51,901 bases of DNA from Gammaproteobacteria bacterium (GCA_024638445.1 JAHEKH010000009.1:1-51901); one strand, 5' to 3'; shown: positions 30,833-49,615, counted from the stretch's first letter. The notes: a model not told the origin generated them from the letters alone. Program-made: numbers and translations.

Positions 30833-30835
30833 GCG

Positions 30836-32641: not shown

Positions 32642-32671
32642 GGTCAAAGCCTCTCGCGGAGCCAGCGCTGG

Positions 32672-32711: not shown

Positions 32712-33527
32712 TCAGCGCCGGCGCCGATAGAGAATTAATGTCGTGTCGTCCGGTTTGCTGGGATCGTCACGCTCGGGTTTCAGCATCCGATGCTGCACTG
32801 CGTTCATTACCTTGTCCGCCGCTTTCATTAACGGTCCGACACGAACGGCATCGATCAGTTCATCGAGGTGCAGGTTGTCCAGGACACCGTCAGTTGCCAG
32901 GACGAGCGTATCGCGGCGCGCCAGTGTAACGTGATGACCAATTTCGATCCGCATGTCTTCCGAACCGATGACATTCGAAACGAGATGGCGATCCTCGTGG
33001 TGCATTGCCTCGCCTTCGTCAATGACGCCCGCCTCGACCGCGTAACCGACAGGCGAATGCGCCACGGTCTGCATCTTGAGCCTGCCCCTCTGGCCGACGA
33101 CCAGCACCGCGGAATCGCCGATGTGGATTGGCCTCAGGCTGTGATCGTGCAGTTCGACGACCGCAAGCGTCGTCGCGGAACCGTTGCCGCTGGCAAGAAC
33201 CGCCTGGTTCGCCTGCTCGATTGCATTGACTATTGCCGCACGGGTTCGGTTTTCATCCTCCGGGTCGCCATCAATAGCAGCCAGAGCCTGAACGGCGGCG
33301 AGGGAGGCGGTGTGGGCCATGCGCGATCCACCAACGCCGTCGGCGACCGCCATGATGGCGCTGCGCTTACCGACCGGGACGACAACAGCAGCGTCCTCGT
33401 TGCTGCCGTCCTTGTCGGGTGCCCGGAACGAACTGACTACAGCCTCGCCGCCCGCCACCCTGACGTGTAGCAGCGCGTAATCAAGGGACTCACTGATGAC
33501 GACGGGTGTTGTTATTGGCCGGCTCAT
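32712..33527 (-). CDS. PP2C-family protein serine/threonine phosphatase
   Basis: Soluble metal-dependent phosphatase, 271 aa. PP2C motifs in order: NEDAAVV (43-49), MAVADGVGG (59-67), the GSATT segment, HIGDSAVLVV, LATDGVLDN and the final metal Asp in PDDTTL. All Asp residues for the bimetal centre are present. It starts 1 nt after the kinase stop, so kinase and phosphatase form a coupled on/off pair, as PpkA/PppA do in type VI secretion. Likely substrates are the kinase itself and threonine-phosphorylated partners of the FHA proteins encoded at 38.6-43.4 kb; this is inference from context. Confidence 0.93.
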   Translation of the reverse strand: MSRPITTPVVISESLDYALLHVRVAGGEAVVSSFRAPDKDGSNEDAAVVVPVGKRSAIMAVADGVGGSRMAHTASLAAVQALAAIDGDPEDENRTRAAIVNAIEQANQAVLASGNGSATTLAVVELHDHSLRPIHIGDSAVLVVGQRGRLKMQTVAHSPVGYAVEAGVIDEGEAMHHEDRHLVSNVIGSEDMRIEIGHHVTLARRDTLVLATDGVLDNLHLDELIDAVRVGPLMKAADKVMNAVQHRMLKPERDDPSKPDDTTLILYRRRR

Positions 33528-33528
33528 G

Positions 33529-34839
33529 TCAGGTACCCAGGTGATCCGAGCACCACGGGCACCAGCCCCAGAATTCCGGCAGTACGTCGTTACCGCAGCT
33601 GCCGCAGGCGCTGCCGCCGTCGATCTTCCAGCGTTTTTTCACCTTCGTCCGGCACCAGGGGCAGTAGCGCATATGAGGCATCAGCTCCTTGCGTTCGCAC
33701 CGGGCGTTGCCGCAACGCGCAGAGTAGCGGCGATCGCCGTATTCCCGCTCTGCAGCGTCGTCATATTTCGGGCCGTAACACCAGGGGCAATAGTGCCAGT
33801 CCAGCTTCATGCCGCGATCGCAGCGGGCACATTGCGCGGGCATCGGTGTCTCGCCCTCGTAGAACTTCCCATCGGTTCCGCACCAGGGACACGCCTGCAT
33901 GGTCTCGCTGACCGGCCCATGGCACTTGCGGCAGTTAAAACGGGTTTCGAGGGACTTGCCGTGGGAACGGCGGAACTGCCGCCAGCGCACCTCGTGCCAG
34001 GTTGGCCCGTTGGATTCCTTCCGGCTACGCCGGCCCGCCTTGCGGCGCATCCAGGCCCGCGTACGCGGAAGAATCCGCTCGAATTCGGCCAGCATCGCGC
34101 CCCCGTTTGCGAAACGCTTTGCAGGCGTGATTTCGATCGACTTCCTGATCATGTCAACGAACTCTGCGGGAACGCGTTGCCGAAGCTTGTCGTAACCGGG
34201 CCCCGGCCAGGTAAACGGCCATTCCGGCAGTTTCCCGGACAGCATCCGGTAAATCAGCAGGCCGAGGGAAAATACGTCGGAACGATAGCCGGGGCGACCC
34301 ATTGCCTGTTCCGGCGCCACGAAACCCAGGGTGCCCGAACCGGATGCCTTTACCGTGCGCAGGGCAATCTTGGAAATCCCGAAATCGGCGAGCCGCAGGT
34401 GACCGTCTTCGAACAAGATGAAATTCTCGGGCTTGATGTCGCAATGGATAACGCGCAGCGCGTGCGCGAAAGCAACGGCTTCGAGCATCTGGCCGATGTA
34501 GTCGAGCACCGTCTCGGTGGCGAGCCGGCGACTGATACGGTCGGCAAGCGTGCAAATACCCAGCGGGCTGACGATGACAAAATGCCCGTCGATGAATCCC
34601 GCATCCTTGATCGGCAAAATGTTCGGATGATCCAGGCGCGCCGCCAGACGCACCTCTTTCCTGAACTCTTCCGGAAACTTCTCCGTCGCACGGCCACGGT
34701 GCGGCATCTTGAGCGCGACCTTGACGCCAAGAATAGTATCCGTCGCCGCATACACCGCGGCGAAATCGGTGTCGGCGAGACGTTTTTCGATGCGGAACTT
34801 GCCGAGCCTCTGTCGGCGCCGCAGGACAGGCGCTTTCAT
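33529..34839 (-). CDS. Soluble Ser/Thr protein kinase with four C-terminal zinc ribbons
   Basis: A 436-aa Hanks-type kinase. The ATG at 34839 (MKAPVLRRRQ) fits the domain start; the longer open frame to 35130 shadows the divergent glycosyltransferase. Catalytic residues present: Lys44 (VALK), Glu62, Asp134 and Asn139 in HCDIKPEN (HCD instead of HRD), Asp152 in DFG and VAPEQ. The glycine-rich loop is degenerate (RLADTDFAAVY, no glycines). There is no TM helix. Residues ~295-436 hold four zinc-ribbon units, each C-x2/3-C ... CPWC (CRKC, CARC, CGNARC and CGSC, each with its CPWC). These probably serve in protein-protein binding or sensing. Coupled to the PP2C gene by a 1-nt gap. Confidence 0.92.
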   Translation of the reverse strand: MKAPVLRRRQRLGKFRIEKRLADTDFAAVYAATDTILGVKVALKMPHRGRATEKFPEEFRKEVRLAARLDHPNILPIKDAGFIDGHFVIVSPLGICTLADRISRRLATETVLDYIGQMLEAVAFAHALRVIHCDIKPENFILFEDGHLRLADFGISKIALRTVKASGSGTLGFVAPEQAMGRPGYRSDVFSLGLLIYRMLSGKLPEWPFTWPGPGYDKLRQRVPAEFVDMIRKSIEITPAKRFANGGAMLAEFERILPRTRAWMRRKAGRRSRKESNGPTWHEVRWRQFRRSHGKSLETRFNCRKCHGPVSETMQACPWCGTDGKFYEGETPMPAQCARCDRGMKLDWHYCPWCYGPKYDDAAEREYGDRRYSARCGNARCERKELMPHMRYCPWCRTKVKKRWKIDGGSACGSCGNDVLPEFWGWCPWCSDHLGT

Positions 34840-34893
34840 CGCCGTGAGTGTACGCGAACCGGTCGCTGGCCGCCGCACCCACGGTGTGCGACG

Positions 34894-36081
34894 ATGCCGC
34901 CGGTGATCCGGATTCTGACCTACAGCACCCTGTTCCCCAATGCCGCACAGCCGGGGCACGGGCCTTTCGTCGAGAACCGCCTGCGCCAGCTGGTCGGCAC
35001 GGGCGAGGTGGCCGCCACGGTCGTCGCTCCCGTTCCCTGGTTTCCCTTCAGCCATCCGGTTTTCGGCAGCTATGCCGCGTTTGCAGCGGCTCCACGTCAC
35101 GAGATCCGCCATGGAATCGAGGTCGTGCATCCCCGTTACCCGGTCATTCCGCGGTTCGGCATGAACCTCGCCCCCACCCTCCTCGAACGTTACTCACGCC
35201 GCGCCGTAGGCCGTGCGCTGGAGGCCGATCCGGCCATCCGGCTCATCGATGCGCATTACTTCTACCCGGATGGCGTGGCGGCGGTGCGCCTGGGACAACG
35301 TTTCGGACTGCCCGTGTTCATCACGGCGCGCGGCACCGATATCAACCTGATCCCGCAATTCGAGCGTCCACGACGAATGATCCTCGAGGCGGCTTCCCGG
35401 GCCGCGGGCATCATTACCGTCTGCCAGGCGCTGAAGGACGGGCTGACCGAAATGGGGGTCGATCCCGGCCGGATTACCGTCTTGCGTAACGGCGTCGACT
35501 TCACGATGTTCGGGCCGCGACCGGTCGACACCGCGCGGGAACAGACCGGTATTGCGGGCACGACGCTGTTATCGGTCGGGCTGCTGATCGAGCGTAAGGG
35601 TCATCACCTGGTTATCGATGCGTTGCCGACGCTGCCCGACGTCAACCTGGTCATCATCGGTGACGGGCCGATGCGAGACGAGCTGGAAGCACAGGCCGGC
35701 CGGCTCGGCGTGCGGGAGCGAGTGAAATTCGTCGGCCGGGTGCCACAGGCCGAGCTGCCGGCCTGGTACAACGCCGCCGATGCCCTGGTCCTCGCATCGA
35801 GTCGTGAGGGCATGGCCAATGTGCTCCTCGAATCGCTCGCCTGCGGTACCCCGGTCGTTGCCACACCCTTGTGGGGAACTCCGGAGGTGATCGCGACCCC
35901 GGCCGCGGGACGGCTGTCGGCCGATCGTTCCGCCGAGGCACTGGCTGCGGCCATCCGCGAGCTGCTCGCCAATCCGCCTGCCCGGGCTGACACCCTCGCC
36001 TACTCAAAAAACTTCAGCTGGGACGCCACCAGCCGCGGCCAGATCGAGCTGTTCAGCCAGGTACCCGCAAGAACTTCGTAG
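34894..36081 (+). CDS. Glycosyltransferase family 4 protein
   Basis: A 395-aa GT-B glycosyltransferase. The start at 34894 (MPPVIRILTYSTLF) opens the N-terminal Rossmann domain (PNAAQPGHGPFVENRL); the frame open further upstream covers the kinase gene. The C-terminal GT4 domain has LLIERKGHHLVIDAL, VIIGDGPMRDELE, FVGRVPQAELPAWY and the nucleotide-sugar-binding SSREGMANVLLESLACGTPV. It transfers a sugar to a surface glycan or lipid-linked acceptor. It is divergent from the kinase across 54 bp. Donor and acceptor are unknown; a role in the exopolysaccharide of the first region is possible. Confidence 0.92.
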   Translation: MPPVIRILTYSTLFPNAAQPGHGPFVENRLRQLVGTGEVAATVVAPVPWFPFSHPVFGSYAAFAAAPRHEIRHGIEVVHPRYPVIPRFGMNLAPTLLERYSRRAVGRALEADPAIRLIDAHYFYPDGVAAVRLGQRFGLPVFITARGTDINLIPQFERPRRMILEAASRAAGIITVCQALKDGLTEMGVDPGRITVLRNGVDFTMFGPRPVDTAREQTGIAGTTLLSVGLLIERKGHHLVIDALPTLPDVNLVIIGDGPMRDELEAQAGRLGVRERVKFVGRVPQAELPAWYNAADALVLASSREGMANVLLESLACGTPVVATPLWGTPEVIATPAAGRLSADRSAEALAAAIRELLANPPARADTLAYSKNFSWDATSRGQIELFSQVPARTS

Positions 36082-36265: not shown

Positions 36266-36342
36266 GCGAGAGAGCTGTCGGTGCCTTTCTTTGATGACGT
36301 CAGATCCTCGGCAGCAAAGAAAGGTGCCGGCAGCTCTCTCGC
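36266..36342 (+). ncRNA. 28-bp hairpin, repeat unit 1
   Basis: Left arm 36266-36293, 21-nt loop 36294-36314, right arm 36315-36342. All 28 positions pair if read as plus-strand RNA, with three G-U wobbles; on the opposite strand those would be A-C mismatches. The loop carries the palindrome TGACGTCA (36295-36302). Whether it is transcribed is unknown. Confidence 0.55.
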
Positions 36343-36423
36343 GCAACCTCGCAAAAAAGCCCGAGGGATCACGGGCAGCAAGCCGCTCCAACAGGGAATC
36401 CCCCCAGCCTTGCGACCACCCCA

Positions 36424-36500
36424 GCGAGAGAGCTGCCGGTGCTTTCCTTTGGTGACGTCAGATCCTCGGCATCAAAGGAAAGTGCCGGCAGCTCTCTCGC
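36424..36500 (+). ncRNA. 28-bp hairpin, repeat unit 2
   Basis: Left arm 36424-36451, 21-nt loop 36452-36472, right arm 36473-36500. All 28 positions pair in plus-strand RNA with two G-U wobbles. Relative to unit 1, stem positions 20 and 23 have both partners changed (C-G to U-A and U-A to C-G), so pairing is kept. The loop again has TGACGTCA (36453-36460). Confidence 0.55.
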
Positions 36501-36550
36501 GCAATCCCGGAACCAGTCCCCGGAATCGCGACTCCAGCTGCTTACACCAC

Positions 36551-37543
36551 CTAGTTGCTGCGCGGCAGGCCAATGAAGGTCCCGCCATGCTCGTTGCACA
36601 GCAGCCGCATCAGCGTTGCAAACCGAATCCCGGTTTCGTGCAACCGCGGATCCTGCTCCAGCATGACGGGAAAACCCACCGCGTGTATCCGCACCAGCCG
36701 GTTACCATCCGGGCCGATCCGGTTAATCTTGTTGACTGCATCGAGCACCGGCTGGATGGCGCCACCGGCAAACTCGTCGCCAAAAACGTAGATGCTTATT
36801 TTTTTGTCAGGCGAATAGAACGTCGAAATGGCCCGGGTGATGCCCTCCACCGGGCTCGAGTTACTGAACACCCGCCAGCCCCGCAACGTGCTGATGATCG
36901 CATCCCGCCGGGCGCGTGAATCCGGGATCCAGCGGCCCCGGTATCGCGGAAACATGTATTGCCCGTTGTCATTCATGACCTGGATACCCTTCACTTCCGG
37001 GTAAACGGCCAGCGTCTCCGACACTTTCTGCTGCACCAGCGGCCAGGCGTAGGAAAACATGCTGACCGACGTATCGATGACGAAGATGATGTACTCGCTG
37101 TCGGCCGGTATTCCACCGACAATGCTGCTGGGCGCCGAATCGTAGATTCGCAGTTCATCGATCTCGCGTGTCAGCTCACGCAGCGTGTATTCGAGTCGTT
37201 CCTCGAGAATGTTGGCAACCGACGAGTCTTTGTCGGAAACGTCGAACTCACCGCTCAGCACTTTCAGCCGGCTGGTCAGCCGTGCGAGTTCGCCCTTGCG
37301 CCGGGATACCCGGTCACGCCGGTCCTCGCGCTCGGCGTCCACGGCGACAACCTGGCTGCGCAGGGACTCGACCCGCTCGCGCAGCTCAGTTACTTCGGTG
37401 CGCAGGGCCTCCGTGGTTTTTTCGAGGACGATCGGCTGCGTCACCTTGGTGATGACCAGCAGCAACAGGATTGCGCCAAAGCCACAGGCGATCGCGTCGA
37501 GAAACGACAGGCTGAAAGGCTGAATTTCACGCCGTTTCGCCAT
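36551..37543 (-). CDS. Membrane-anchored VWA protein with TolR/ExbD-like N-terminal helix (A)
   Basis: A 330-aa protein. A short basic cytosolic N-terminus is followed by one TM helix (about 13-33) opening with SFLDAIACGFGA, where Asp16 lies at the position of the proton-path Asp of TolR/ExbD (FLDVLLVLL). A periplasmic coiled coil (40-130) leads to a von Willebrand A domain (151-330) with the metal site DTSVS (Asp157, Ser159, Ser161). Last gene of the operon, starting 2 nt after the paralogue at 37546. A role as a stator-driven periplasmic binding or mechanical element with the TolQ-like protein is inferred. Confidence 0.85.
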   Translation of the reverse strand: MAKRREIQPFSLSFLDAIACGFGAILLLLVITKVTQPIVLEKTTEALRTEVTELRERVESLRSQVVAVDAEREDRRDRVSRRKGELARLTSRLKVLSGEFDVSDKDSSVANILEERLEYTLRELTREIDELRIYDSAPSSIVGGIPADSEYIIFVIDTSVSMFSYAWPLVQQKVSETLAVYPEVKGIQVMNDNGQYMFPRYRGRWIPDSRARRDAIISTLRGWRVFSNSSPVEGITRAISTFYSPDKKISIYVFGDEFAGGAIQPVLDAVNKINRIGPDGNRLVRIHAVGFPVMLEQDPRLHETGIRFATLMRLLCNEHGGTFIGLPRSN

Positions 37544-37545
37544 GC

Positions 37546-38643
37546 TCAGGGCCAGTCCTTCGAAGGACTCATGAACGAACCACCGGTTGCCATCGCCAGC
37601 CGCCAGAAGCTGACCGCACCCTGCGGGTCACCCTCGATCGGCATGAGAATCGTGTTGATCGGTATGCCGATGGGCAGCTGTTCGAGCGACCGGTTGAACA
37701 GCCGCAACCGGTTTCGCGGCGAGACCGTGCGCCGCCGCGGTGGTGACTCACCAACCGTCGGCAGCCCATCGGTAATCAACACGACGTTGTCTGGCATAGG
37801 GTCGAGACTGCGAATTGCATTGAAGGACTGGTACAGGCTGGTTCCCTTTGCCGGGTCGATCGACTGCAGCGCCTTGATCATCTTCGTGATGGCCGCCTTG
37901 TCGGTCGCCGCATACCACTCGTTCTCGGTGCCCGCCAGCAGCGGCCGGGCGCTGTCGTTGAAGACGTACACCTGGAAATCGACCGTCTCCGGGAGCCGCG
38001 ACAGGATCCATTCGACGCTGCGCACCGAGCGCTGCCACTTGGCCGAATCGACTTTGCGTTCGAAGGGCATATTGCGTCGGCGAATGATGTTGACGACCGT
38101 GGTGTCGAGCATGCTCGCCGACATGTCCAGCATGATCAGCAGCCGCCGCCCGCCCAGCCGCAGACCGGTCAGGTACTGGCGGTCTCCCTGGCCAAGGAAA
38201 TCCCGCGCATCGGCCTCGGTGAGCTTGCGTTCCTCCGCCGCCCCCTCAAGCCGGTTGTGTTCGTCCTCGAGCGACTTGATATCGGCCATGAGCGCGGCAA
38301 TGTTTTCCCGCTGCGACATGGTCGTTTCATCCTGGTTGGCCATCTCGTCGCGGGCCCGGGCGATTTCCTCCGTAATCTGCCTCACCTGGGCCTGTAGCTG
38401 CACCAGGTCACGGTCGGCTTCCTCGATTTCCGATTTCGCGCGGCTGATGTGAACGTCGCTTTCCTCGATCTCCTGGGTCAGGGACTCGATCTCGATCAAC
38501 AGGTCCTCGTTGATCCGGTCGGACCGTTCCAGGGTCGAGTGATGGATCAGCATGAAGACCAGCACCGTCGCGCCGAAGCCACACGACATGATGTCGAGGA
38601 ACGACAGGCTGAATACCGTGAATCTTCTTTGCTTACGCGCCAT
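37546..38643 (-). CDS. Membrane-anchored VWA protein with TolR/ExbD-like N-terminal helix (B)
   Basis: A 365-aa paralogue of the next gene. The N-terminus MARKQRR and TM helix (12-34) contain SFLDIMSCGFGA with Asp17 at the TolR/ExbD Asp position. A long periplasmic coiled coil follows (40-140), then a VWA domain with metal site DMSAS (Asp173, Ser175, Ser177), the later Thr in KGTSLY and Asp in LITDGLPT. The start overlaps the FHA gene by 11 nt. Having two different VWA subunits suggests a heteromeric complex with the TolQ-like channel. No peptidoglycan-binding (OmpA-like) domain is present. Confidence 0.86.
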   Translation of the reverse strand: MARKQRRFTVFSLSFLDIMSCGFGATVLVFMLIHHSTLERSDRINEDLLIEIESLTQEIEESDVHISRAKSEIEEADRDLVQLQAQVRQITEEIARARDEMANQDETTMSQRENIAALMADIKSLEDEHNRLEGAAEERKLTEADARDFLGQGDRQYLTGLRLGGRRLLIMLDMSASMLDTTVVNIIRRRNMPFERKVDSAKWQRSVRSVEWILSRLPETVDFQVYVFNDSARPLLAGTENEWYAATDKAAITKMIKALQSIDPAKGTSLYQSFNAIRSLDPMPDNVVLITDGLPTVGESPPRRRTVSPRNRLRLFNRSLEQLPIGIPINTILMPIEGDPQGAVSFWRLAMATGGSFMSPSKDWP

Positions 38644-40006
38644 TGCCCTGGGATACGGTGATCAGCTGGAGTAGCTGGTCCGGACCACCCAGCCGCAGCA
38701 CATCGCCGTAGTGCACCGGGCATTCGCCGTCTACACGGCGGTCGTTGACAAACGTGCCGTGCTGGCTCCGATCCTGCACGAACACGCCGCCATCGCGCCG
38801 CACGATGAGCGCGTGATCGCCGGAGACACCGGCCAGGTCACCGATCAGCACAACCGACGGCTGGCCGTCGGCAGGCTGTGCGCCAAGATGAACCTGGTCT
38901 GCAATACGGATGGCGCGGCCGCGATACAGCACGTGTGTGGGCAACGCCGCGTCGTCGGGTGGGTTATCGCCGGGTAAGGGCAGCGACACCGGGTCGCGCC
39001 GCCAGCTCACGCTGGTGACAAAGGCAATCGAGTCGCCGCCGCTGGTGGCAATTTCTTCCGCGCGCCGCAGTGCCCCGGTGCCGGCCTGGCCGGCCACGAG
39101 CTCGATAAATTCACAGCCCGGCATGCCTGCGGACAGGGCGTCGCGCAGACCGGGGAACGCACCCAGCCGGTCAGACAACATCAGCGTGACCGGCTCACCC
39201 GGTCGGCTGGCCGCCGCAATGCTGCGCGTCAACCGCCGGTACAGCGGTTCGGCAGCCTCCGCCAGCGTCTGCCTTCCGATGTCCGCCCGGAAGTCGCGAT
39301 CGCCACGCTGCAGGACCAGCGCCACCTTGCCGTCTCCGGCGGGCTGGGAAAGCCAGCCGGGCAATGCGTCGTAGAGTTCCTGTTCGGACTCCGCGGAGTG
39401 CATCGGGTCGTAGCGGGTATTGCGAACGAACACGTCACCGACAGCGGCGGCCCAGGCGTCGTGGAAATGGCCCAGACCGGCATCGTCGACCGCAGCAGCA
39501 GCGGCGCGGCGCAGCCGCCCGCCCTGCGTCAGCGTGGTCAGTACCGCGCGCTTCTGCATCAGCTCGAGGTGCATCAGGTGCCGGCCGGGCGCCGCCTGTT
39601 CCGCAGCGACGACCGCCTGGTCGACGATCCCGCTGACCGGTATCGCACACTCACGTGCGATACCCAGCAACAGGCTGAGCTGCTCCCGGTCATAGCTGCC
39701 GGGCACGACGAGGATGACCTGGCTCACGCCATCGGCCACCGCCGACCACGTGTCCTTGAGGTGGTGATAGGCGAGATCGGCGCGGGTTGCCGCACCGCGC
39801 ACGGATGCCGGCAGTGCCTCCAGGCTCAGGTTGCCCCAGATGTCGTCAAAAACGCGTCCGGGCGCCAGCCGCGCCTGAGCGCGGGCAGCGTTCCCGGTCA
39901 CCACGTCACCGTTGACGACCGCGAATCCCGGGCTCTCCGCCTTCAGACCGTCTTCGCCCAGCACACGCAGGCTGACATCGTTGATCTCGAATGCGAGTGT
40001 TGTCAT
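38633..40006 (-). CDS. Hsp70/actin-fold protein fused to an FHA domain
   Basis: A 457-aa cytosolic protein. The start at 40006 (MTTLAFEIND) overlaps the TolQ-like stop by 1 nt. The first ~340 residues follow an Hsp70-like layout: an opening beta-hairpin, GFAVVNGDVVTGNAARAQ (28-45), VILVVPGSYDREQLSLLLG (97-115) and the IVDQAVVAA segment. The phosphate-binding glycines are poorly kept, so ATPase activity is doubtful. The C-terminus is a clear FHA domain (about 365-450) with SGDHALI and DRSQHGTFVND (412-422), which binds phosphothreonine. It likely links the kinase/phosphatase pair to the membrane complex encoded on either side. Confidence 0.82.
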   Translation of the reverse strand: MTTLAFEINDVSLRVLGEDGLKAESPGFAVVNGDVVTGNAARAQARLAPGRVFDDIWGNLSLEALPASVRGAATRADLAYHHLKDTWSAVADGVSQVILVVPGSYDREQLSLLLGIARECAIPVSGIVDQAVVAAEQAAPGRHLMHLELMQKRAVLTTLTQGGRLRRAAAAAVDDAGLGHFHDAWAAAVGDVFVRNTRYDPMHSAESEQELYDALPGWLSQPAGDGKVALVLQRGDRDFRADIGRQTLAEAAEPLYRRLTRSIAAASRPGEPVTLMLSDRLGAFPGLRDALSAGMPGCEFIELVAGQAGTGALRRAEEIATSGGDSIAFVTSVSWRRDPVSLPLPGDNPPDDAALPTHVLYRGRAIRIADQVHLGAQPADGQPSVVLIGDLAGVSGDHALIVRRDGGVFVQDRSQHGTFVNDRRVDGECPVHYGDVLRLGGPDQLLQLITVSQGNGA

Positions 40007-40824
40007 CAGCGCACCTGCAGATGCTGGACCAGCCGGTCGTCGCAATAGTTTTGCGCTTCCATGACCAGCCGCTCCTGCAGCAGCTGGAGCTGGTGCATCA
40101 GGAACATCAACACGATGCTCAACAGCAGTGCCACGAAAGTGGAGTTGAACGCCACGCCTAGACTCTCGGTCACACCGGAAATATTGCCCTCGACGGCCTG
40201 GTGCGCCTGGCTCAGCGCTTCACCGATGCCGCGCACCGTGCCGATAAAGCCGATCGACGGTATCGCCCAGGCAATGTACCGGACCATTGAAAGCTCGGAA
40301 TCCAGCCGCTCCGACTCGGCCTCGCACACCGTGCGAATTGACGTCGACACGTCCTGGATATTTCGGGTAGAGCGAAAACGGTGCAGACCGGTCAGCAGCG
40401 CGCGAGGCAACAGCGTGTCTCGTTCGGCCGCCGGCAGCGCCTGTACCGGCCTCGAGAACTGTCGCGTGTCCTCGGGCAGGATAGACATCCCCTCGTTGAC
40501 CGGCACCAGGTCACGCAGGAGCATCTTGCGCTCCCGCACCGCGCCGGCCGCCTTGTAGCCCATGATGGCCATGGCCCAGAGCATCAGGATGAAGCAGGTT
40601 TCCTGTTCGAAGTCACGAATGAGCACATAGATCGAGCGCTCCGGGACGAAATCCCGGTCGATTTCCATCTGCGCGCGCTGTTCGGCCATGACCTCGGCTG
40701 CCTTCGGCCTCACGACTGACACGTACATGCCGTGCACGACAATGACGGAAATTACCAGGGCGAATACCTGGAACAGGAATTCGAATGGAATGCTGTTCCG
40801 CCGGATGGCTGCAACTTCCTGCAT
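40006..40824 (-). CDS. TolQ/ExbB/MotA-family proton-channel protein
   Basis: A 272-aa inner-membrane protein with TM helices near 15-35, 75-94, 182-200 and 227-245. The conserved MotA/TolQ/ExbB region is seen as IPSIGFIGTVRGIGEAL (188-204) and TESLGVAFNSTFVAL (219-233). The ATG at 40824 lies 1 nt after the stop of the 49-aa gene; the frame to 40917 shadows that gene. TolQ-type proteins form the pentamer around TolR-type helices and use proton flow for work in the periplasm. The only candidate partners in the window are the two VWA proteins with the matching Asp. Confidence 0.9.
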   Translation of the reverse strand: MQEVAAIRRNSIPFEFLFQVFALVISVIVVHGMYVSVVRPKAAEVMAEQRAQMEIDRDFVPERSIYVLIRDFEQETCFILMLWAMAIMGYKAAGAVRERKMLLRDLVPVNEGMSILPEDTRQFSRPVQALPAAERDTLLPRALLTGLHRFRSTRNIQDVSTSIRTVCEAESERLDSELSMVRYIAWAIPSIGFIGTVRGIGEALSQAHQAVEGNISGVTESLGVAFNSTFVALLLSIVLMFLMHQLQLLQERLVMEAQNYCDDRLVQHLQVR

Positions 40825-40825
40825 G

Positions 40826-40975
40826 TCAGATATCCGTCGGGAATGCGACGGCGGTATCGGCTTCGACGACTTCACTCGGCGAAAAGTTGTCGTCTTCGGC
40901 GTCCTCGTCCTGGGCAAAGGCCACCAGCCCCACGGTCAGCACCGCGGCTAGGAACAGGTAGGCAACGGTTCGCAT
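40826..40975 (-). CDS. 49-aa exported acidic peptide
   Basis: A small gene with a strong ribosome site (GAGGAG, 7 nt before the ATG at 40975). It encodes a signal peptide (MRTVAYLFLAAVLTVGLVAFA) and a ~28-residue mature acidic tail (QDEDAEDDNFSPSEVVEADT...). It lies between the SUMF1-type gene (69 bp) and the TolQ-like gene (1 nt). No family is recognised. It may be a small periplasmic subunit of the complex. Confidence 0.75.
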   Translation of the reverse strand: MRTVAYLFLAAVLTVGLVAFAQDEDAEDDNFSPSEVVEADTAVAFPTDI

Positions 40976-41044: not shown

Positions 41045-43435
41045 CTAGCGGGCATAGCGCGCCACGCGGAAGCCGAGATCCGGACGTCCCTGGGCGCCAC
41101 TGTCGCGGAATGCGCTGCGCAGCTCGCTGATATTACCCTTCATCCAGCTCGCCCCGCGGATCACGTGGCGATCGCCAAACTCGGGGCCCAGTGGATCGAC
41201 CAGCGACAGGAACGGGTCGATCGGGTTGAGTTCGTAATAGTCGTGGGTCCACTCGGACACGTTTCCGCCCAGGTCTTTCAGACCCAGCCGGTTGGCCGCA
41301 AAACTGCCCACCGGAGCCGTGACGGGAAAACCGTCGTCGTAGTTATCCAGGTGCTGGGCCACGATGCTGGCCGATGCATTGTCGGCGAAATTGCCCGCGC
41401 CGGCCGGTGGCGGCAGGGAGTCGCCCCACGGGTAGCGCAGCGGCTGCGGACCGCCGGCAAATCGTGCCACCCAGGCCCACTCGGCTTCACTGGGCAGGCG
41501 ATAGCCGGTGTTCATCGGCCGGACCGCGACCAGCCTGCCATCACGATCGATATAGGCCTTTGGCAGACCGTCACGGTCGCTCATCCAGTTGCAGAAACGG
41601 GCTGCCAGCTGCCAGCTGACCCGGACCACCGGCTGGTCGTCGCCGTCCAGACTGATTCCGCCGACGAAACCTGAGCTGTGCTCGCCCATGAATTCTCTGA
41701 ATGCCGCGTTGGTAACTTCAGTTTCGCCGATGTAGAACTCGCGGGTCAGCTCGACATCGCGTCGCACCTCGTTGCTGCGCCGGCCCTGCTCGCGCCGGAC
41801 CGAACCCATGCGCAACGAGCCGCCCTGGATCAGTCTGAGTTTGCCGGCCGGCGTATCAATCTTTGCGGGCAACTCGGCTGCCGCCGCCTCCGCCACGGTT
41901 TTCAGCACAACGGTCAGGCTTTGCTCGAGGCCTCGCCGCGGCGTAACGGTCTCGGTGTGCGTGGCATAACCGTTCTTGCGCAACTCAATCCGGTGCGGCG
42001 CGGCGGTCAGCTCCAGAACCTGGCCCGCGGTGCCGCGTCTCACGCCATCGACATAGAGCTCGGCGTCCGCCGGGCTGGCGACGACGCGCACCGAGCCGAT
42101 GATTGGCTGCAGCCGGACGTTGAGTGACTGGGTCTCCTCCGGAGCAACCGTGACGCGACGGCTGGCCGTTTCGTAGCCCGGCTTCGCCAGCGCGAGCCGG
42201 TGTTCCTGGTTGGGTTCGAGCTCGAGTTCGAGCGGCGTTCGTCCGCGGAACTTGCCGTTGACCGAGACGTTCACCGCCCCGGGGGTGGTGGCAACACTCA
42301 GGCGTCCGTCCGCCACCGGCAGGACGAAGGGTTCGAGCACCTGGGCTTCACCGGCGACCACGTTGATCAGCCGGCTCTCGGTATCGTAACCGGCCAGCGA
42401 CAGGCTCACCTCGCGATCCCCTGCCTCGATCTCCGCGGTTATCGGCGTCGTGCCAACAGCGACGCCGTCTACGGCGACCGTTGCTCCGGCTGGTTCACTG
42501 GCCAGGTCCACCGGCGCCCAGTTCGGTTGCAGCGTGATGTTCAGGCTCTGGCTTTCCAGCAACCCGGCGATCTCGATTTCCTGTTCGTGCTGCAGGTGGT
42601 TGCGCGCCCGCACGAGCAGCCGGTGCAGCCCGGCGGAAACCTCTGCGTCGCTTAACGGCGTCGTGCCGATCAGTTCGCCGTCGATCAGCACCTCGGCGCC
42701 CGACAGTTCGCCGCTGCTCACCGAAAGCAGCCCGGGAAGTTTTTCCATCTGCAGGGCAAACTGCTGGTTGGCCGACAGGCCAACCTCGATCGTCTCGTCC
42801 AGCGGCCGGTAGCCCTCGAGTTCGGCAACGACACGGTATTCGCCCGGTCGCAGCAGGTAACGCCCGCCGACCCGAGGCTTGAACAAGGTCCCTTCGATGG
42901 CCATTTCAGCCGGCTGCGGTTCGATAATGACATTGACCGAGTTGGCGGTGAACAGGAACCAGGCGGCTGCCGCGAGCACGGCAAACACGGCAACCAGTGC
43001 AGCCACCACCGGCCGGGAACCGCTGCGCGCGGCGACCCCGGCCCCCCGCTCGGGGTGAAAGGCAACAGGCTGAACCGTCTCCCAGCTCTCGTCATCGCCT
43101 TTTGCTGGCGGAAGTTCGGGCGCACTGTTCGAGCGGGCGTGCAGCTCCAGCCGTTCACCGCGCCGGTGCACCACCAGCCGGCCGGCATCGAACGTCAGCG
43201 TGTCGCCGGCGCTGAGCCAGCGGGAGCCGGACACCGCCTTGCCGTTTACGTGGAGACCCGAGTCACCGGGGGTCACAAAAGCCCTGCCCTCGTGAATCCC
43301 GATACGAGCGACCGTGATGCCATCGACGCCATCGAGACGAATCGCGGCCGTATCGCCGCCGATGTCCAGTGGAAAATCCTCGACCCGGAAGTGACGTTCG
43401 CCACGATCGTCGCGGCTGTAGGCGGCGTCTATCAA
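41045..43435 (-). CDS. FHA-like / TM / PEGA repeats / SUMF1-domain protein
   Basis: A 796-aa single-pass membrane protein. Residues ~15-100 form an FHA-like cytosolic domain (ARIGIHEGRAFVTPGDSG, LHVNGKAV). A TM helix spans 143-163. The periplasmic part has about five PEGA repeats (165-525; e.g. AEVLIDGELIGTTPLSDAEV-like units) and a C-terminal SUMF1/FGE-sulfatase-fold domain (540-796) with GETEVTNAAFREF, YRLPSEAEWAWVA, LGGNVSEWT and RGASWMKG. The catalytic Cys pair of formylglycine-generating enzymes is missing, so the domain is probably for binding. It overlaps the TPR gene start by 4 nt. It could carry a phospho-signal between cytoplasm and periplasm. Confidence 0.9.
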   Translation of the reverse strand: MIDAAYSRDDRGERHFRVEDFPLDIGGDTAAIRLDGVDGITVARIGIHEGRAFVTPGDSGLHVNGKAVSGSRWLSAGDTLTFDAGRLVVHRRGERLELHARSNSAPELPPAKGDDESWETVQPVAFHPERGAGVAARSGSRPVVAALVAVFAVLAAAAWFLFTANSVNVIIEPQPAEMAIEGTLFKPRVGGRYLLRPGEYRVVAELEGYRPLDETIEVGLSANQQFALQMEKLPGLLSVSSGELSGAEVLIDGELIGTTPLSDAEVSAGLHRLLVRARNHLQHEQEIEIAGLLESQSLNITLQPNWAPVDLASEPAGATVAVDGVAVGTTPITAEIEAGDREVSLSLAGYDTESRLINVVAGEAQVLEPFVLPVADGRLSVATTPGAVNVSVNGKFRGRTPLELELEPNQEHRLALAKPGYETASRRVTVAPEETQSLNVRLQPIIGSVRVVASPADAELYVDGVRRGTAGQVLELTAAPHRIELRKNGYATHTETVTPRRGLEQSLTVVLKTVAEAAAAELPAKIDTPAGKLRLIQGGSLRMGSVRREQGRRSNEVRRDVELTREFYIGETEVTNAAFREFMGEHSSGFVGGISLDGDDQPVVRVSWQLAARFCNWMSDRDGLPKAYIDRDGRLVAVRPMNTGYRLPSEAEWAWVARFAGGPQPLRYPWGDSLPPPAGAGNFADNASASIVAQHLDNYDDGFPVTAPVGSFAANRLGLKDLGGNVSEWTHDYYELNPIDPFLSLVDPLGPEFGDRHVIRGASWMKGNISELRSAFRDSGAQGRPDLGFRVARYAR

Positions 43436-44898
43436 ATCTGTTCCTCGCAGCGAATTTCCAGCGGTTCGGGCTCCTTGCCGGCTTCGACTACGAGCTCGGC
43501 ACGAACATCACGGTAGCCGCTGCGGCTGCCGATGACGGTGTACCGCCCCGGCTTGAGCTTCATCTCATGACTGTCAAACGATCCGAGCCGGCCCACCTTG
43601 AAAACGACGATCTCGGTCTGGTTGTCAGAGCGCAGCTGCACCCGGACCGGCAGGCTGGCCAGGGCGACCGCCCGTGCAATCTCGCTCGAAAGACTACGCA
43701 GGCCCGGTGCGTCGGCACCAACCCGCTCGACCTGTTCGAGCAGCTCTGTGGCCTGGTTCCGCACGTCGCGGCGATAAAACTCGTCCTGTTCCAGCAACGC
43801 CTCCGCCCGGGACGTCAGCGACGCCAGCCGCCGTGACCGGTCGCGGCCCTGCTGGGCGAGTACCAGGGCCGGGTCCAGCTGCAGCAGCTCGCCGTAATAA
43901 CCAATCGCGCTTTCCCAGTCCTCGCTGGCTTCGGCTTCGGCGGCAAGCGCTCGCAAACGCTTTGTGCGGGCGGCCCGGACCGCTACATCGACCTGGACCC
44001 GGGCATCGCGCACTTCCGGCGATGCCGGCCGCAGGGCCGCCGCCTGTCCGAGCGCCGTGCGCGCCGCGCCGTATTCCGCGGCTGCGAGGGCACGATATGC
44101 CGACGACATGGCGGACTCGAACCGGTCGTTTGCCAACAGCGATTCCAGGCGGACAACAGATGCCTGCACTTCGGCATCCTCCGGATCGATCCGGGCAGCT
44201 TCACGCAGGGCCTCCAGCGCGCCGGCGATATCGCCCTGTGCCTCCAGGTTGCGGGCCTCCCGGCCAAGCTCCAGCAAATCGCCGAGATACGACGTCTGGC
44301 GCAGGGCCGCGCGCACCTCGGTGTCGTCAGGATTGATGGCCAGGACGACGCTAAAATGTTCCGCCGCTTCGTCCGCATTGCCGGCATTGAAGGCCTGCCA
44401 GCCGACAACGCGCCGGTCGGCGGCAATACCCGGCGCCTGCTCCAGCAGCTGTTCGAGCAGCGTATTGGCCTCATCGAGTGAACGCAACGACGCGATGTGG
44501 TCGAGCTCGCTGGCCTGGCGTTCTCCCTCTCGCAGCATCTCCAGCGCTCGCGCGGCCCGCACCTCCGCCCAGTCCGACACATTCATGGCCTCCAGCTTCA
44601 GCCAGCGCTGGTAAACCTCCCTGCGCCGGTTTTCTGCCGCCGTGGCCTGCGACGCCATGCGCTCACGGGCTTCGGCCACGCTGTCCCTCGCGCTGCCGTT
44701 GCCGTTATCCGACAGCAAGGCCGGCAGGAACAGCACCGCCGCCATCGCCGCCACGGACAGCAGGCTGACCGCCAACACCCAGCGCGCCAGGTGCCGATGA
44801 CCCGGGCCCTCGACGGCAACCGTTTGCGGACGCGTGCCGGACGCCCGGCGCGATACAGGAGTAATCGTCTCGAATTGTTCGTTGTCGCCGGGGTTCAT
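43432..44898 (-). CDS. Single-pass TPR protein with C-terminal PEGA-like domain
   Basis: A 488-aa membrane protein. A 38-residue cytosolic N-terminus contains Thr/Ser sites (ETITPVSRRAS), then a TM helix (39-62). The periplasmic part has coiled-coil/TPR repeats (80-400) and a small beta-domain (about 410-480) with LKPGRYTVIGSRSGYRDV, as in PEGA-type surface domains. The Thr-rich N-terminus is a plausible phosphorylation target for the kinase, readable by FHA domains; this is inferred. It overlaps the SUMF1-type gene by 4 nt and follows the lipoprotein at 45004 after 105 bp with no obvious terminator. Confidence 0.82.
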   Translation of the reverse strand: MNPGDNEQFETITPVSRRASGTRPQTVAVEGPGHRHLARWVLAVSLLSVAAMAAVLFLPALLSDNGNGSARDSVAEARERMASQATAAENRRREVYQRWLKLEAMNVSDWAEVRAARALEMLREGERQASELDHIASLRSLDEANTLLEQLLEQAPGIAADRRVVGWQAFNAGNADEAAEHFSVVLAINPDDTEVRAALRQTSYLGDLLELGREARNLEAQGDIAGALEALREAARIDPEDAEVQASVVRLESLLANDRFESAMSSAYRALAAAEYGAARTALGQAAALRPASPEVRDARVQVDVAVRAARTKRLRALAAEAEASEDWESAIGYYGELLQLDPALVLAQQGRDRSRRLASLTSRAEALLEQDEFYRRDVRNQATELLEQVERVGADAPGLRSLSSEIARAVALASLPVRVQLRSDNQTEIVVFKVGRLGSFDSHEMKLKPGRYTVIGSRSGYRDVRAELVVEAGKEPEPLEIRCEEQI

Positions 44899-45003: not shown

Positions 45004-46218
45004 TCATGGGTTACCGGACGTCTCCGTCGAGCCGATTTCAGGCAACCCGGTCTCGGTTTCGTAAATGTCCCGCAGGATCTGGCGCCACTGCTGAAACTGT
45101 GATTCGACCGAACCGGTCAGGGTAATCGTCTTGCCCTCGACCTCGAGCACCGCGGGTTTGACCTCCGCCTCGAAGGAATCGCCGAGCTCGCGCATGGTCT
45201 GCGCATGCACCTGCGCTTCAGGCCGCAACGGCAACGTACTCAATACCGAAGACAGGCCTACCAGCGCACCGGCGCGCCCCGAATAACTCGCATACGGGTT
45301 ATCGGTGGAGGCGTCGACGGCCAGCCCGCCGACGATCAGCGCCGCACCGGCAATCGTGCGCCGTCGAATCTCACGCTCGAGCCGGCGCAGCTCGACCACT
45401 TCGTCGTAATTGAATCGCCGCCACTGGCTGTAGGCGCGTTCGATCTGGTCATGAAAAGCGCCGTAGTGCTGGTCGAGGGTGTCGATAAACAGGTAATCGC
45501 GCTCCCGTATCCGCTGCACGCGGTTGAGCATGGGATCGTCCAGCGCCGGTAATCGGTTAACCACGATTCGCCCGTCGCGCTCCTCCAGGTAGTCGCCAAA
45601 TGCACGCGGCGCAACATCGGCGGCAAAACGCAGTTGGGAAATCTCGCGGATTCGCGCGAGATCTTTTCTCGGCAACTCCTCGCGCGCCGCCAGCAGGTCA
45701 TTCGCAACCTGGTTGTAGAGATCCTGGAAGGGATCGATCCGGCCGGTATTGACGTCGTCGCGATAGTTCAGCTTGCCGGCAAGGTCTTCGTATTCACGAC
45801 CGTCGAGCCATACCCGGCCCGTCGCATCACGAGCCCAGACCTGCAGCATCAGCAGCTCACCGTCCGACTGGATGATCCTGCCGTCGATGATGAGGTCGAC
45901 GGTTTCCGTACCCCGCGGCAGCACCCGGACGGCACCCCACTGGCCGGTGTCCTGCAGCGTGTCACGTAGTTCGTAGGGCAGGTAGCGTGCCTCGGCCTGG
46001 CGCACGCCGGCCACCAGCCGCTGCTCGTTCTGGTCCCTGATGTCCTCGGGTATGTTGGGATCGAAAATATTGATACCGACGTCGAGCAGCATTGCGTCGG
46101 GCACATCGGCCGTCGCCGCCCGTGCCGGCGTCGCGTTGATGGTTATGACTTCCTGGTGCACGCAGCCGGTCACGACCAGCGGCAACAGCGCCAGGACTAG
46201 CGAACTGAGGGTCTTCAA
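45004..46218 (-). CDS. Lipoprotein of unknown family (TTG start)
   Basis: A 404-aa lipoprotein. I place the start at a TTG (46216-46218) that overlaps the stop of the upstream gene by 4 nt (TTGA), with GGAGG 10 nt upstream. It gives an exact lipoprotein signal peptide, KTLSSLVLALLPLVVTGC (Cys19). The upstream ATG at 46275 would put 19 charged residues before it. The mature part has a mixed alpha/beta domain (60-160) with LLDVGINIFDPNIPED and VDLIIDGRIIQSDGELLML, a helical region rich in Arg/Glu, and a Gly/Ala hydrophobic stretch (TIAGAALIVGGLAVD). No known family recognised. Probably an envelope component of the system encoded downstream. Confidence 0.78.
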   Translation of the reverse strand: MKTLSSLVLALLPLVVTGCVHQEVITINATPARAATADVPDAMLLDVGINIFDPNIPEDIRDQNEQRLVAGVRQAEARYLPYELRDTLQDTGQWGAVRVLPRGTETVDLIIDGRIIQSDGELLMLQVWARDATGRVWLDGREYEDLAGKLNYRDDVNTGRIDPFQDLYNQVANDLLAAREELPRKDLARIREISQLRFAADVAPRAFGDYLEERDGRIVVNRLPALDDPMLNRVQRIRERDYLFIDTLDQHYGAFHDQIERAYSQWRRFNYDEVVELRRLEREIRRRTIAGAALIVGGLAVDASTDNPYASYSGRAGALVGLSSVLSTLPLRPEAQVHAQTMRELGDSFEAEVKPAVLEVEGKTITLTGSVESQFQQWRQILRDIYETETGLPEIGSTETSGNP

Positions 46219-47972
46219 TTGGCTTCGGCCTCCCCGGACTCCAGGCTCTCTTTGTAATTTCTGTATTCGTCCCATAACGCGGCTTTCAGTTCCGGATCTT
46301 CCTCGGCCATCGCCGCTTCACGCAGCTGGCGGGCGATGATGTCATCGTCCTGGACCCGGGCCACTGTCTCGATGTCGTAATCCTGCTCGTGTTCCGAGGC
46401 CACTTCGGGGTTGGACGCCTGCGGATTGCCCGGCACATTCCAATCGACATCCCGGTGCTGGGCACCGTCCATCGATGCCTGCCGGCTGGTGGCATTCCTC
46501 GCGTTTCTTTGCGATGACTCACCGGCCCGAGGATCGGTGGATGAACCTGCATCGGCCGCCGTGCTGAGCTCGCTGTCTTCGCCGCCCATGCCACGCACGA
46601 TGCTGCTGCCCTCGGCATGCATGCGGTCGTCGAACACCGCCAGCGACTGGTCCAGCTGATCCTCCAGGCTGGCTACCCGGTCGCCCGGGTCTTCGCCTTC
46701 GCCACGCTCCTCGTCGGCATGACGGGCATCGTCTTTTCCGCCCAGTACGCCCATCAGCGACCCGGCAGCTTCCAGCAGGTCACCGGTGGCTTCCAGTGCA
46801 TCGGCCGCATTGCGCATGTCGCGCTGGATCACGGCAACGACCTTGGCAATACTTTCCTGCGCCAGCTCCTGCGACTCATCGCTCTCGCCGGCGTCCGTAT
46901 CGGATGCATAAGCATCCGATGCGGCCATTACCGCGATTGCCGATGCAATGACTGCCTCGGCTGCCGCCTCCATCGCGGCCTGTGCTGCGGCCAGCTGCAC
47001 GGCTTCGGCATCACGGTCGCCGGTACCGGGACGTGCGGCCTCGGCGGCAGTGATCAGTGCGCGACGGGCACGGCTGAGCGCCGCACGCGCGGTTGCCACC
47101 GCATCTTCGGCAATTTGCAGTGAGCCTTCACGAGGCTGGTTGATCGGCTGACCCGGGGCGCCCGACTGTTCGCCGTAATCGGCAAAAGGATCGAAGCTGT
47201 CGTTGCCCTCGGTCTGCCCACCCTTGACCTGTTGCTGCTCCTGTTCGCCGGCGGTCGCATCGTCGCCGCCACCGGCGGCTGCCGTCTGGGCTCCTTCACC
47301 ATCGGAACGCTGCGAGCGCTGGCCGCCACCTGCTTTGTCGGTGGCTGATTTTTCACCCGCGCCGGGCGTCACCCAGGGATCGAAGGAATCCTGTTCTCCG
47401 CCGCCGGCAGCATCGGACGGCGTTTCGCGGGCACGGGCGATTGCCGCCTCGGCCTCGCTGACCGCGTCGGCAGCCGCATCGACGGCTGCATTGGCACCTT
47501 CCAGCGCTTCGGCAACACCAACCTCGGGGTCCTCGCTGGCGACGCCCTTGTCGCTGCCGATATCGCTCTCCACGGCGTCGGGATCGTTGGTGCCGGCACC
47601 GGATTTCTCGACGCTGGCAACCCGGATGTCTGCGGCACCATCTTCGCCACCGGACTGCCCCGGCAGCCGGCCACCGTCTTTTTCACCCGTGGTCGAGCCC
47701 TGGGTGGATTCCTGGGTGACGACGTCGCCGCTTCGCGGCGCTGTCGCGGTTGAATCGCGCGCGGTCTTGCCACGAGTCCGTGAATCGCCCTGTGTCCCGG
47801 GCTGCGGCATGGAATCCTGGGACGGCGGCATCGGCTTGCTGACGGTGCCCTCCCCGCTTCCCTCTCCCTCGCCGGAGCCCGAACGGGTCGGATTGCTGCT
47901 GAAACAGCCGGCAACGATGAGCGGCACGAGCAGGGCTGCAATCGCTGATTTGAGCTGGACTGGCTTATTCAT
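46215..47972 (-). CDS. Large disordered, Ala/Glu/Asp-rich lipoprotein
   Basis: A 585-aa lipoprotein with lipobox IVAGC (Cys23). The mature protein is low-complexity. First comes a Ser/Gly/Pro/Asp-rich disordered stretch (25-280), with the motif DSFDPW/DSFDPF repeated twice. Next are Ala-rich helices with internal similarity (around 150-185 and 290-350). The tail is acidic and disordered but ends in a short helical segment (EEDPELKAALWDEYRNYKES). No enzymatic motif. First gene of the nine-gene operon. It could be a long flexible tether between membranes; this is inference from composition. Confidence 0.78.
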   Translation of the reverse strand: MNKPVQLKSAIAALLVPLIVAGCFSSNPTRSGSGEGEGSGEGTVSKPMPPSQDSMPQPGTQGDSRTRGKTARDSTATAPRSGDVVTQESTQGSTTGEKDGGRLPGQSGGEDGAADIRVASVEKSGAGTNDPDAVESDIGSDKGVASEDPEVGVAEALEGANAAVDAAADAVSEAEAAIARARETPSDAAGGGEQDSFDPWVTPGAGEKSATDKAGGGQRSQRSDGEGAQTAAAGGGDDATAGEQEQQQVKGGQTEGNDSFDPFADYGEQSGAPGQPINQPREGSLQIAEDAVATARAALSRARRALITAAEAARPGTGDRDAEAVQLAAAQAAMEAAAEAVIASAIAVMAASDAYASDTDAGESDESQELAQESIAKVVAVIQRDMRNAADALEATGDLLEAAGSLMGVLGGKDDARHADEERGEGEDPGDRVASLEDQLDQSLAVFDDRMHAEGSSIVRGMGGEDSELSTAADAGSSTDPRAGESSQRNARNATSRQASMDGAQHRDVDWNVPGNPQASNPEVASEHEQDYDIETVARVQDDDIIARQLREAAMAEEDPELKAALWDEYRNYKESLESGEAEAN

Positions 47973-48258: not shown

Positions 48259-48957
48259 ATGATTTATCCAGCCCGCCTGGCGCCGCTTGCCGCGGTTTGC
48301 CTGCTCGCTACCGGCTGTGCCACCACGGTGCCGCCGCTGACCTCCGAGTTTCCTACGCCGCTCATCGAAAACCTGCCGCTGACCGTGGGCGTTTTTTATG
48401 ACGAGGACCTGCAGAACTTCACCTACAACGAACGCGTCTCGGACGGCACGAACTGGACCATCGAGCTGGGTGAAAGCAACGTCCGGCTGTTCAACCGGTT
48501 GTTCCGCGCCATGTTCCACCAGGTCGTTCCGATAGACGACATCGACAATGCGCCGCCGGCCGTCGACGCGGTGCTGCGGCCGGTGCTGGAGGAATATGCG
48601 TTCCTGACTCCGAACGAACTGGGCTCGCGGTTTTACGCGGTGTCTATTCGTTACCGTCTATTCCTCTACGACAATTCCGGCGAGGAACTGGCCGACTGGT
48701 CGATCAATGCTTACGGCCAGAGCCGGTCCGGTATCATCAACGCCGGGAAGATGAAAACCGGCCCCCTGCAGGAGGCAACCAACCTGGCGATGCGCGATGC
48801 GGCCGCCGGCACTATCATGACGCTGCCGGCGCAGGACCAGTTCATCGCTTTGCTGGACCCGGACACTGCGGATCCGGACGGTACTGATACCGCCGGAACA
48901 GAGAATGGAGACAACCCGATTACCGACGCTGACATCGAGGCCAATGAAAGCGAATAG
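48259..48957 (+). CDS. Lipoprotein of unknown function
   Basis: A 232-aa lipoprotein. The ATG at 48259 opens MIYPARLAPLAAVCLLATGC (Cys20); the frame is open from 48037 but without signal character. The mature domain (30-190) has alternating strands and helices (LPLTVGVFYDEDLQNF, VDAVLRPVLEEYAFLTP, FYAVSIRYRLFLYDN), a layout seen in outer-membrane lipoproteins that act in complex assembly. The C-terminal ~35 residues are Asp/Gly/Thr-rich and disordered. It overlaps the next lipoprotein gene by 14 nt. Divergent from the nine-gene operon, so likely functionally linked; no family named. Confidence 0.8.
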   Translation: MIYPARLAPLAAVCLLATGCATTVPPLTSEFPTPLIENLPLTVGVFYDEDLQNFTYNERVSDGTNWTIELGESNVRLFNRLFRAMFHQVVPIDDIDNAPPAVDAVLRPVLEEYAFLTPNELGSRFYAVSIRYRLFLYDNSGEELADWSINAYGQSRSGIINAGKMKTGPLQEATNLAMRDAAAGTIMTLPAQDQFIALLDPDTADPDGTDTAGTENGDNPITDADIEANESE

Positions 48958-49615
48958 GCTCACCCTCCTGACCACTATCGGCCTGGCGCTCAGCCAGGCC
49001 GGCTGCGTCACCTCGAGAATCGAGGAAGCACGCCATACGGCCACCGGTATCGGCAAGTCCGAACGGGTGGTGATACTGGCCCAGCGACAAAATGTCGACT
49101 ACCAGACCGAAGACGGCTTTGTCACCTGCCTCGGGACGGAGCTGAGCAACGGCAGCAATGGACTGCAGATGCACCCCGAGCGGGAATTCATGGATCAGCT
49201 CTTTCCCTGGTTCGAGCCGGCACACGCGCCGACGCATTCCGAATCGCTGCGAACGCTGCTGGAGCGACCGGGTGTTGCCGACCGGCTGGCGCAGACCGGT
49301 GTCCGTTACCTGATCTGGATTGACGGCACCACCCAGATCGTCGATGGCGGCGGCAACCTGTCATGCACCGTAGGCGCCGGTGGTGCCGGGTGTTTCGGCT
49401 TCCAGTGGTGGGAAAACGACTCGTCGTACGAGGCTGCCGTGTGGGACCTGCAGACGGTAGAGCATGTCGGTACGATCAGCGCCGACGCAGTGGGTACGTC
49501 CTATCTTCCCGCGGTCATCGTGCCGATACCGATCATCGCACGCACCAAGAATGCCGCCTGTAACGGGCTCGCGCGTCAGATCAGGGAATTCCTGGTCGCA
49601 GACCCCAGCGACTGA
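48944..49615 (+). CDS. Lipoprotein of unknown function
   Basis: A 223-aa lipoprotein. The start at 48944 overlaps the previous gene by 14 nt and gives a signal ending in LSQAGC (Cys21). The mature domain contains VVILAQRQNVDYQTEDGFVTC, VRYLIWIDGTTQIVDGGG, a Gly-rich CTVGAGGAGCFGF segment and a C-terminal Cys (NAACNGLARQI), so there may be disulfides. The general alpha/beta layout resembles the neighbouring lipoprotein, but the sequences are not close. No family recognised. It ends directly against the convergent TPR/TonB-C gene with no bases between. Confidence 0.78.
   Translation: MKANRLTLLTTIGLALSQAGCVTSRIEEARHTATGIGKSERVVILAQRQNVDYQTEDGFVTCLGTELSNGSNGLQMHPEREFMDQLFPWFEPAHAPTHSESLRTLLERPGVADRLAQTGVRYLIWIDGTTQIVDGGGNLSCTVGAGGAGCFGFQWWENDSSYEAAVWDLQTVEHVGTISADAVGTSYLPAVIVPIPIIARTKNAACNGLARQIREFLVADPSD

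Follow-up and report, generated by a model that had tools for sequence, protein, structure and literature searches.

A gene cluster on a contig of a Gammaproteobacteria bacterium (GCA_024638445.1 JAHEKH010000009.1:1-51901; this whole stretch of 51,901 nucleotides, at whose position 51901 the contig ends, is called the window below) probably encodes a trans-envelope motor driven by the proton-motive force. Its centre consists of a TolQ-like protein and two paralogous proteins, VWA1 and VWA2, in which a von Willebrand factor type A (VWA) domain follows a single transmembrane helix and a coiled coil (Table 1). The motor reading is based on invariant aspartate and threonine residues, on strict gene linkage, on the lack of an ExbD/TolR gene on the contig and on a published AlphaFold 3 (AF3) model, in a 5:2 arrangement, of what is seemingly the same family (PMC12204202, section 8). 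The same evidence supports a preliminary description of this DNA, made from the sequence alone, which had proposed that the MotA/TolQ class of motors has another member here, one with two VWA axle subunits. Its remark that no known system has this make-up is outdated, the architecture having been predicted in print in June 2025 (PMC12204202, section 8 and Fig. 4c-d). The motor core has therefore been anticipated, and what seems undescribed is the obligate partner set, including a secreted peptide.

A scan of GTDB genomes gave 80 cluster loci in Gammaproteobacteria (Halieaceae, Microbulbifer, Cellvibrionaceae, Colwellia, Thalassomonas and metagenome-assembled genomes), and a further genome search added more, including one family from another class of the same phylum. 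VWA1 was present in 154 of the 196 genomes of the order, compared with 15 of 398 when the phylum was sampled evenly, and a search for plasmid copies found none. Linkage was counted at those VWA1 loci with enough flanking sequence, some of which overlap, so that the counts in Table 1 are not all independent. The TolQ-like gene, VWA2, a gene for an FHA-like, transmembrane, PEGA and formylglycine-generating enzyme (FGE) fold protein (FGE/PEGA), a TPR/PEGA gene and orf45 were linked to VWA1 in every locus; an FHA protein, LP1, LP2, an M48 protease and a TPR protein with a TonB_C-like end were linked less often. All the linked genes are present in the window, the M48 gene being cut by the contig end. 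Since the other class retains only the set orf46, orf45, TPR/PEGA, FGE/PEGA, peptide, TolQ, VWA1 and VWA2, this set defines the core, and the FHA protein, absent from nine of 88 loci, is accessory. Two loci (L054 and L079) have a rearranged cluster, with the FHA gene before TolQ and a gap of ~1.8 kb.

The survey thus gives an obligate parts list: TolQ, VWA1, VWA2, FGE/PEGA, TPR/PEGA, orf45 and the secreted peptide. The preliminary description had placed the TolQ-like gene and the two VWA genes in one operon, and all three are present at the coordinates it gave, on the minus strand. It had overlooked the FHA gene (38633..40006) and the peptide, FGE/PEGA, TPR/PEGA and lipoprotein genes; as the last four are linked as tightly as the VWA genes, most of the machine had been missed. 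Two checks that it had proposed, on conservation of the helix Asp and of the TolQ-VWA-VWA neighbourhood, came out in its favour: the residue is invariant, as detailed below, and no homologue was found without TolQ (85/85) or without VWA2 (158/158).

Membership of the TolQ-like protein in the MotA/TolQ/ExbB family is established by its match to PF01618 (E=9.5e-16; 58.1 bits, against a gathering score of 22.9) and its four hydrophobic helices. In the HMMER alignment, T196 and T229 fall on the pore threonines of E. coli TolQ, and their spacing is the same as in TolQ. The start at 40824 is supported by the length of homologues (265-275 aa). The motif SFLDxxxCGFGA is present in the N-terminal helix of both VWA proteins, exactly as in the preliminary description, and the profiles of their first 50 residues align with each other with a probability of 99.6% (hhalign). 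The Asp of this motif is invariant in 130/130 VWA1 (D17) and 126/126 VWA2 (D16) sequences; its apparent loss in eight distant VWA1 proteins was an artefact of start-codon choice, the residue being kept after correction. In the distant class (L203, L204, L152-L163), VWA1 apparently starts at a codon other than ATG, GTG or TTG, and the Cys of the motif is often Ser (SFLDIISSAFAA in VWA2, AFLDIMASGLGA in VWA1).

The periplasmic part of these proteins has a VWA fold in place of the TolR/ExbD periplasmic domain. VWA1 matches Pfam VWA_2 with E=1e-4, below the Pfam cut-off, and the structure of VWA2 was predicted because a Pfam VWA match was lacking. The AlphaFold2 model comprises a transmembrane helix (14-34), a coiled coil (40-135) and an alpha/beta domain (150-330; predicted local distance difference test score ~93) which Foldseek matched to VWA folds (inter-alpha-inhibitor, 4fx5, Rpn10). 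The Asp and Ser residues of the D-x-S-x-S metal ion-dependent adhesion site (MIDAS) are invariant in both proteins, in agreement with the intact site noted before.

Among the partners, the FGE domain has PorK/GldK as its nearest PDB match (E ~1e-18). Catalysis of the formylglycine-generating type was rejected, because the two active-site cysteines are lacking: none of the 54 FGE-domain homologues (54/54) has Cys at the aligned columns. The model of orf45 is confident, and its best PDB matches, to the TolB N-terminal domain (D1), are not significant (E 0.05) and give a hint only. The N-terminal half of the FHA protein was considered as Hsp70-like from a VPGxY pattern; this was dropped when a PDB profile search gave only the FHA domain.

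The gene of the secreted peptide lies between the FGE and TolQ genes, just upstream of TolQ, and its product ends in ...VVEADTAVAFPTDI-stop. A counterpart occurs in the same place at 101/101 loci, with [FY]PxDI as the last five residues at 99 of them and [FY]PxNI at the other two. Seven loci had seemed to lack the peptide, which proved to be an artefact of region limits or of FPxNI endings. For comparison, the looser pattern PxD[ILV]-stop was found 14 times among 43,984 other open reading frame ends of the same loci. The linker varies from none to ~100 residues, and the mature peptide of the distant class is predicted to have ~17 residues. All four Pro, all three Ile and both Asp codons are used in the tail across loci, so that selection acts on it at the protein level. 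MIDAS domains classically bind an acidic residue of the ligand, as in integrins, where LDV offers the closest analogue; FGE folds accommodate peptides within a groove. We propose that the VWA MIDAS or the PorK-like FGE-fold domain binds the tail as a ligand, both being candidate receptors.

In the motor that we envisage, five TolQ-like subunits would form an inner-membrane ring whose pore would hold a VWA1 helix paired with a VWA2 helix, or else two copies of either one. Protonation and deprotonation of Asp16 and Asp17 against the ring of Thr196 and Thr229, as in ExbBD, TolQR and MotAB, would turn the helices. Torque or pull would then travel through the periplasmic coiled coils to the two VWA domains, which may hold on to partners by a Mg2+-type MIDAS. 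The leading candidates for these partners are encoded in the cluster itself: the inner-membrane-anchored PorK-like FGE/PEGA protein and TPR/PEGA protein, the outer membrane-type lipoprotein orf45 and the secreted peptide, of which the [FY]-P-x-D-I end could serve as an acidic MIDAS ligand or occupy the groove of the FGE fold. The cytoplasmic FHA domains, in this lineage perhaps with a kinase and a PP2C phosphatase, could switch or anchor the motor via threonine phosphorylation. The task would most likely be export, or the maintenance of the outer membrane or envelope, comparable with that of Tol-Pal or GldLM-GldK; adhesion, the output suggested by the preliminary description, is unproven. With ring, pore axle, VWA grip and partner roles all as set out here, we consider this scheme moderately likely.

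Several observations weigh against it. A profile of the ExbD/TolR N-terminus, built from this genome and its relatives and aligned to the N-terminal 50 residues of both VWA1 and VWA2, gave hhalign probabilities of 2.5% and 0.3%, compared with 0.4-2.8% for control transmembrane segments of neighbouring proteins. By this comparison there is no detectable sequence homology of the pore helix to ExbD/TolR. The position of the Asp therefore represents a functional or positional resemblance, with homology undemonstrated, and the earlier equation of this residue with the TolR/ExbD proton-path Asp stands for position and is not supported as detectable sequence homology. Absence of the cluster from most of the phylum implies that its task is not general, and the FHA protein, LP1, LP2, M48 and TPR-TonB_C are not universal across loci. 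Finally, in two loci (L208 and L209, of the same order) the peptide ends in FPVNI and FPTNI and both VWA MIDAS sites are intact, which weakens the penultimate Asp as metal ligand, a part that the C-terminal carboxylate could still play.

The composition of the axle admits a second arrangement. VWA1 and VWA2 might each homodimerise, so that one TolQ-like ring would serve two alternative motors, a possibility also for AglRQ/AglRS, instead of a single heterodimeric axle. The Asp motif and the MIDAS are complete in both proteins, so each could work alone, and for AglQ/AglS the choice between homo- and heterodimer is itself undecided (PMC9389320). However, VWA2 adjoins VWA1 at each of the 158 loci and no locus with a single VWA gene was seen, and we regard separate homodimeric motors as somewhat unlikely.

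The proton-driven 5:2 motor can be extended to the peptide, on which the VWA axles may act: its C-terminus would then be a ligand encoded within the operon, serving as brake, cargo tag or tether, for either the VWA MIDAS or the PorK-like FGE-fold domain. We put this forward tentatively, as possible rather than likely. The position of the recognition element at the extreme C-terminus, and the M48 protease often encoded in the cluster, also suit a substrate, or a C-terminal degron or PDZ-type signal, for a periplasmic protease. Yet the peptide is universal whereas M48 is present in 51/75 loci, and the peptide gene always stands between the FGE-fold and TolQ genes, which makes a role in proteolysis unlikely.

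It could also be imagined that the complex generates no force and that it is a signalling device or scaffold gated by the proton-motive force or by phosphorylation, in which the VWA domains sense the envelope state and report through the FHA proteins, the kinase and PP2C. The cluster encodes two FHA proteins, kinase and PP2C genes adjoin it in this lineage, and its invariant tail gives the secreted peptide the look of a ligand. This seems improbable nonetheless, since kinase and PP2C are confined to the nearest relatives and 9/88 loci lack the middle FHA protein, whereas the TolQ/Asp machinery is the invariant part. Still less credible is the idea that the VWA proteins are side-attached transducers like TolA/TonB, with a pore helix from a TolR/ExbD encoded elsewhere: the genome has seven ExbD-family genes on other contigs (none, by PF02472, on this one) and section 8 of PMC12204202 includes a different vWA family of such kind, but the helices described here have an invariant Asp and no SHLS/His motif, are linked to TolQ only, at every locus, and have counterparts that the published AF3 model (PMC12204202, Fig. 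4c-d) places inside the pore.

Table 1. Genes of the cluster and its flank in the window, with the number of loci at which each was linked to VWA1
Feature	Position	Strand	Loci	Remarks
PP2C phosphatase	32712..33527	-		paired with the kinase
Ser/Thr protein kinase	33529..35130	-		C-terminal zinc ribbons; true start probably near 34839
VWA2	36551..37543	-	158/158	N-in transmembrane (TM) helix (Asp16), periplasmic coiled coil, VWA domain; MIDAS D157-x-S159-x-S161, D256
VWA1	37546..38643	-		N-in TM helix (Asp17), periplasmic coiled coil, VWA domain; MIDAS D173-x-S175-x-S177, T268, D292
FHA protein	38633..40006	-	79/88	cytoplasmic; N-terminal domain and C-terminal FHA domain
TolQ-like protein	40006..40824	-	85/85	TolQ/MotA family, four TM helices; invariant T196 and T229, 33 residues apart
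Secreted peptide	40826..40975	-		49 aa, ends FPTDI-COOH; unannotated; strong Shine-Dalgarno; signal peptide by inspection
FGE/PEGA (FHA-TM-PEGA-FGE)	41045..43435	-	82/82	FHA-like N-terminus, one TM helix (~145-165), PEGA repeats, C-terminal FGE fold; nearest type IX secretion PorK/GldK
TPR/PEGA	43432..44898	-	78/78	TM-anchored periplasmic TPR protein, PEGA-like C-terminus
orf45	45004..46275	-	76/76	outer membrane-type lipoprotein; alpha/beta domain and long helices; invariant lipobox Cys38
orf46	46215..47972	-		putative lipoprotein, low complexity; lipobox IVAGC; poorly conserved, position kept in most loci
LP1	48259..48957	+	66/82	putative lipoprotein; divergent here; in many relatives it directly follows VWA2
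LP2	48905..49615	+	55/78	putative lipoprotein; adjoins LP1
TPR-TonB_C	49616..51049	-	33/43	secreted TPR protein, TonB_C-like C-terminus (PF03544 E 9e-5, just below cut-off)
M48 protease	51046..51900	-	51/75	BepA-like metalloprotease lipoprotein, C-terminal part; cut by contig end

The kinase and PP2C were rejected as core parts since, apart from this genome, only its closest relatives (L039-L041) have them beside the cluster. The interval that separates VWA2 from the kinase gene contains direct repeats, at 36168-36512, with copies of 113 nt and 78 nt, ~91% identical and spaced ~158-160 nt. Beyond PP2C, 26104-32701 (minus strand) is an oligopeptide/dipeptide ABC transporter operon (SBP_bac_5, BPD_transp_1, ABC_tran with oligo_HPY). 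At the other end, the genes at 48259-49615 (plus strand) and 49616-51900 (minus strand) belong to the same conserved neighbourhood, in an arrangement unlike that of most relatives.

The survey names relatives that can be cultured and are amenable to knock-outs (Microbulbifer, Halieaceae, Colwellia). Moreover, the near-invariant C-terminal pentapeptide provides a handle on VWA binding, by which the question of function becomes a testable question of ligand.

The closest published counterpart is a family of vWA proteins tethered by a transmembrane helix, described in section 8 and Fig. 4c-d of PMC12204202 (Mol Biol Evol 2025). These occur mostly as heterologous pairs tightly linked to tolQ homologues and without tolR/exbD, with a TolR-like transpore helix, a conserved Asp, a Thr ring and an AF3 5:2 model; the section calls them putative force transducers only. 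These TPH-vWA/TolQ-like motors, also of Proteobacteria, share with the present cluster the tolQ-like gene adjoining a heterologous vWA pair, the lack of tolR/exbD in the cluster, the helix Asp and the TolQ Thr. The cluster looks like the same family, judging by its architecture and by the matches found in related Colwellia and Thalassomonas rather than by a residue-level match to the Idiomarina query. The text of the paper differs in being without the PEGA/FGE, FHA, lipoprotein or secreted-peptide genes found here: figure images and supplement apart, PEGA, FGE and kinase genes are not mentioned in its main text, nor a secreted peptide of this kind in section 8. The other 5:2-motor papers searched do not mention von Willebrand domains, and a literature search on the FGE/PEGA/FHA/VWA combination found no description.

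Resemblance to other systems is partial. Anti-phage defence was rejected, the PADLOC results being coiled-coil noise, a weak ZorA match and generic kinase matches; Zorya (ZorA-ZorB) is likewise a MotA/TolQ-family motor, but beyond that weak match there is no ZorB, effector or other Zorya partner among the ten cluster proteins scanned. The AglR-AglQ-AglS system of Myxococcus gliding also combines one TolQ-like protein with two Asp-bearing single-pass partners, although AglQ/S have TolR-type peptidoglycan-binding domains instead of VWA. With Tol-Pal and Ton the cluster shares the Thr/Asp proton-path residues, the trans-envelope layout, the weak TolB-D1-like fold match of orf45 and, often, a TonB_C-like TPR protein, whereas it has no TolR/ExbD, TolA/TonB or Pal. 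GldLM-GldK/PorK of type IX secretion and gliding likewise joins a 5:2-type motor to an FGE-fold periplasmic protein, and the FGE domain here is closest to PorK/GldK by sequence. The likeness to type IX secretion is limited to this domain, since the motor here has TolQ-family and VWA proteins in place of GldL and GldM domains, and the FGE protein is transmembrane-anchored with PEGA and FHA-like domains, unlike the lipoprotein GldK/PorK. If the peptide is indeed the ligand on which the VWA axles act, the cluster would represent a trans-envelope machine coupled to a peptide and distinct from Ton, Tol, Mot, Gld and Zorya.

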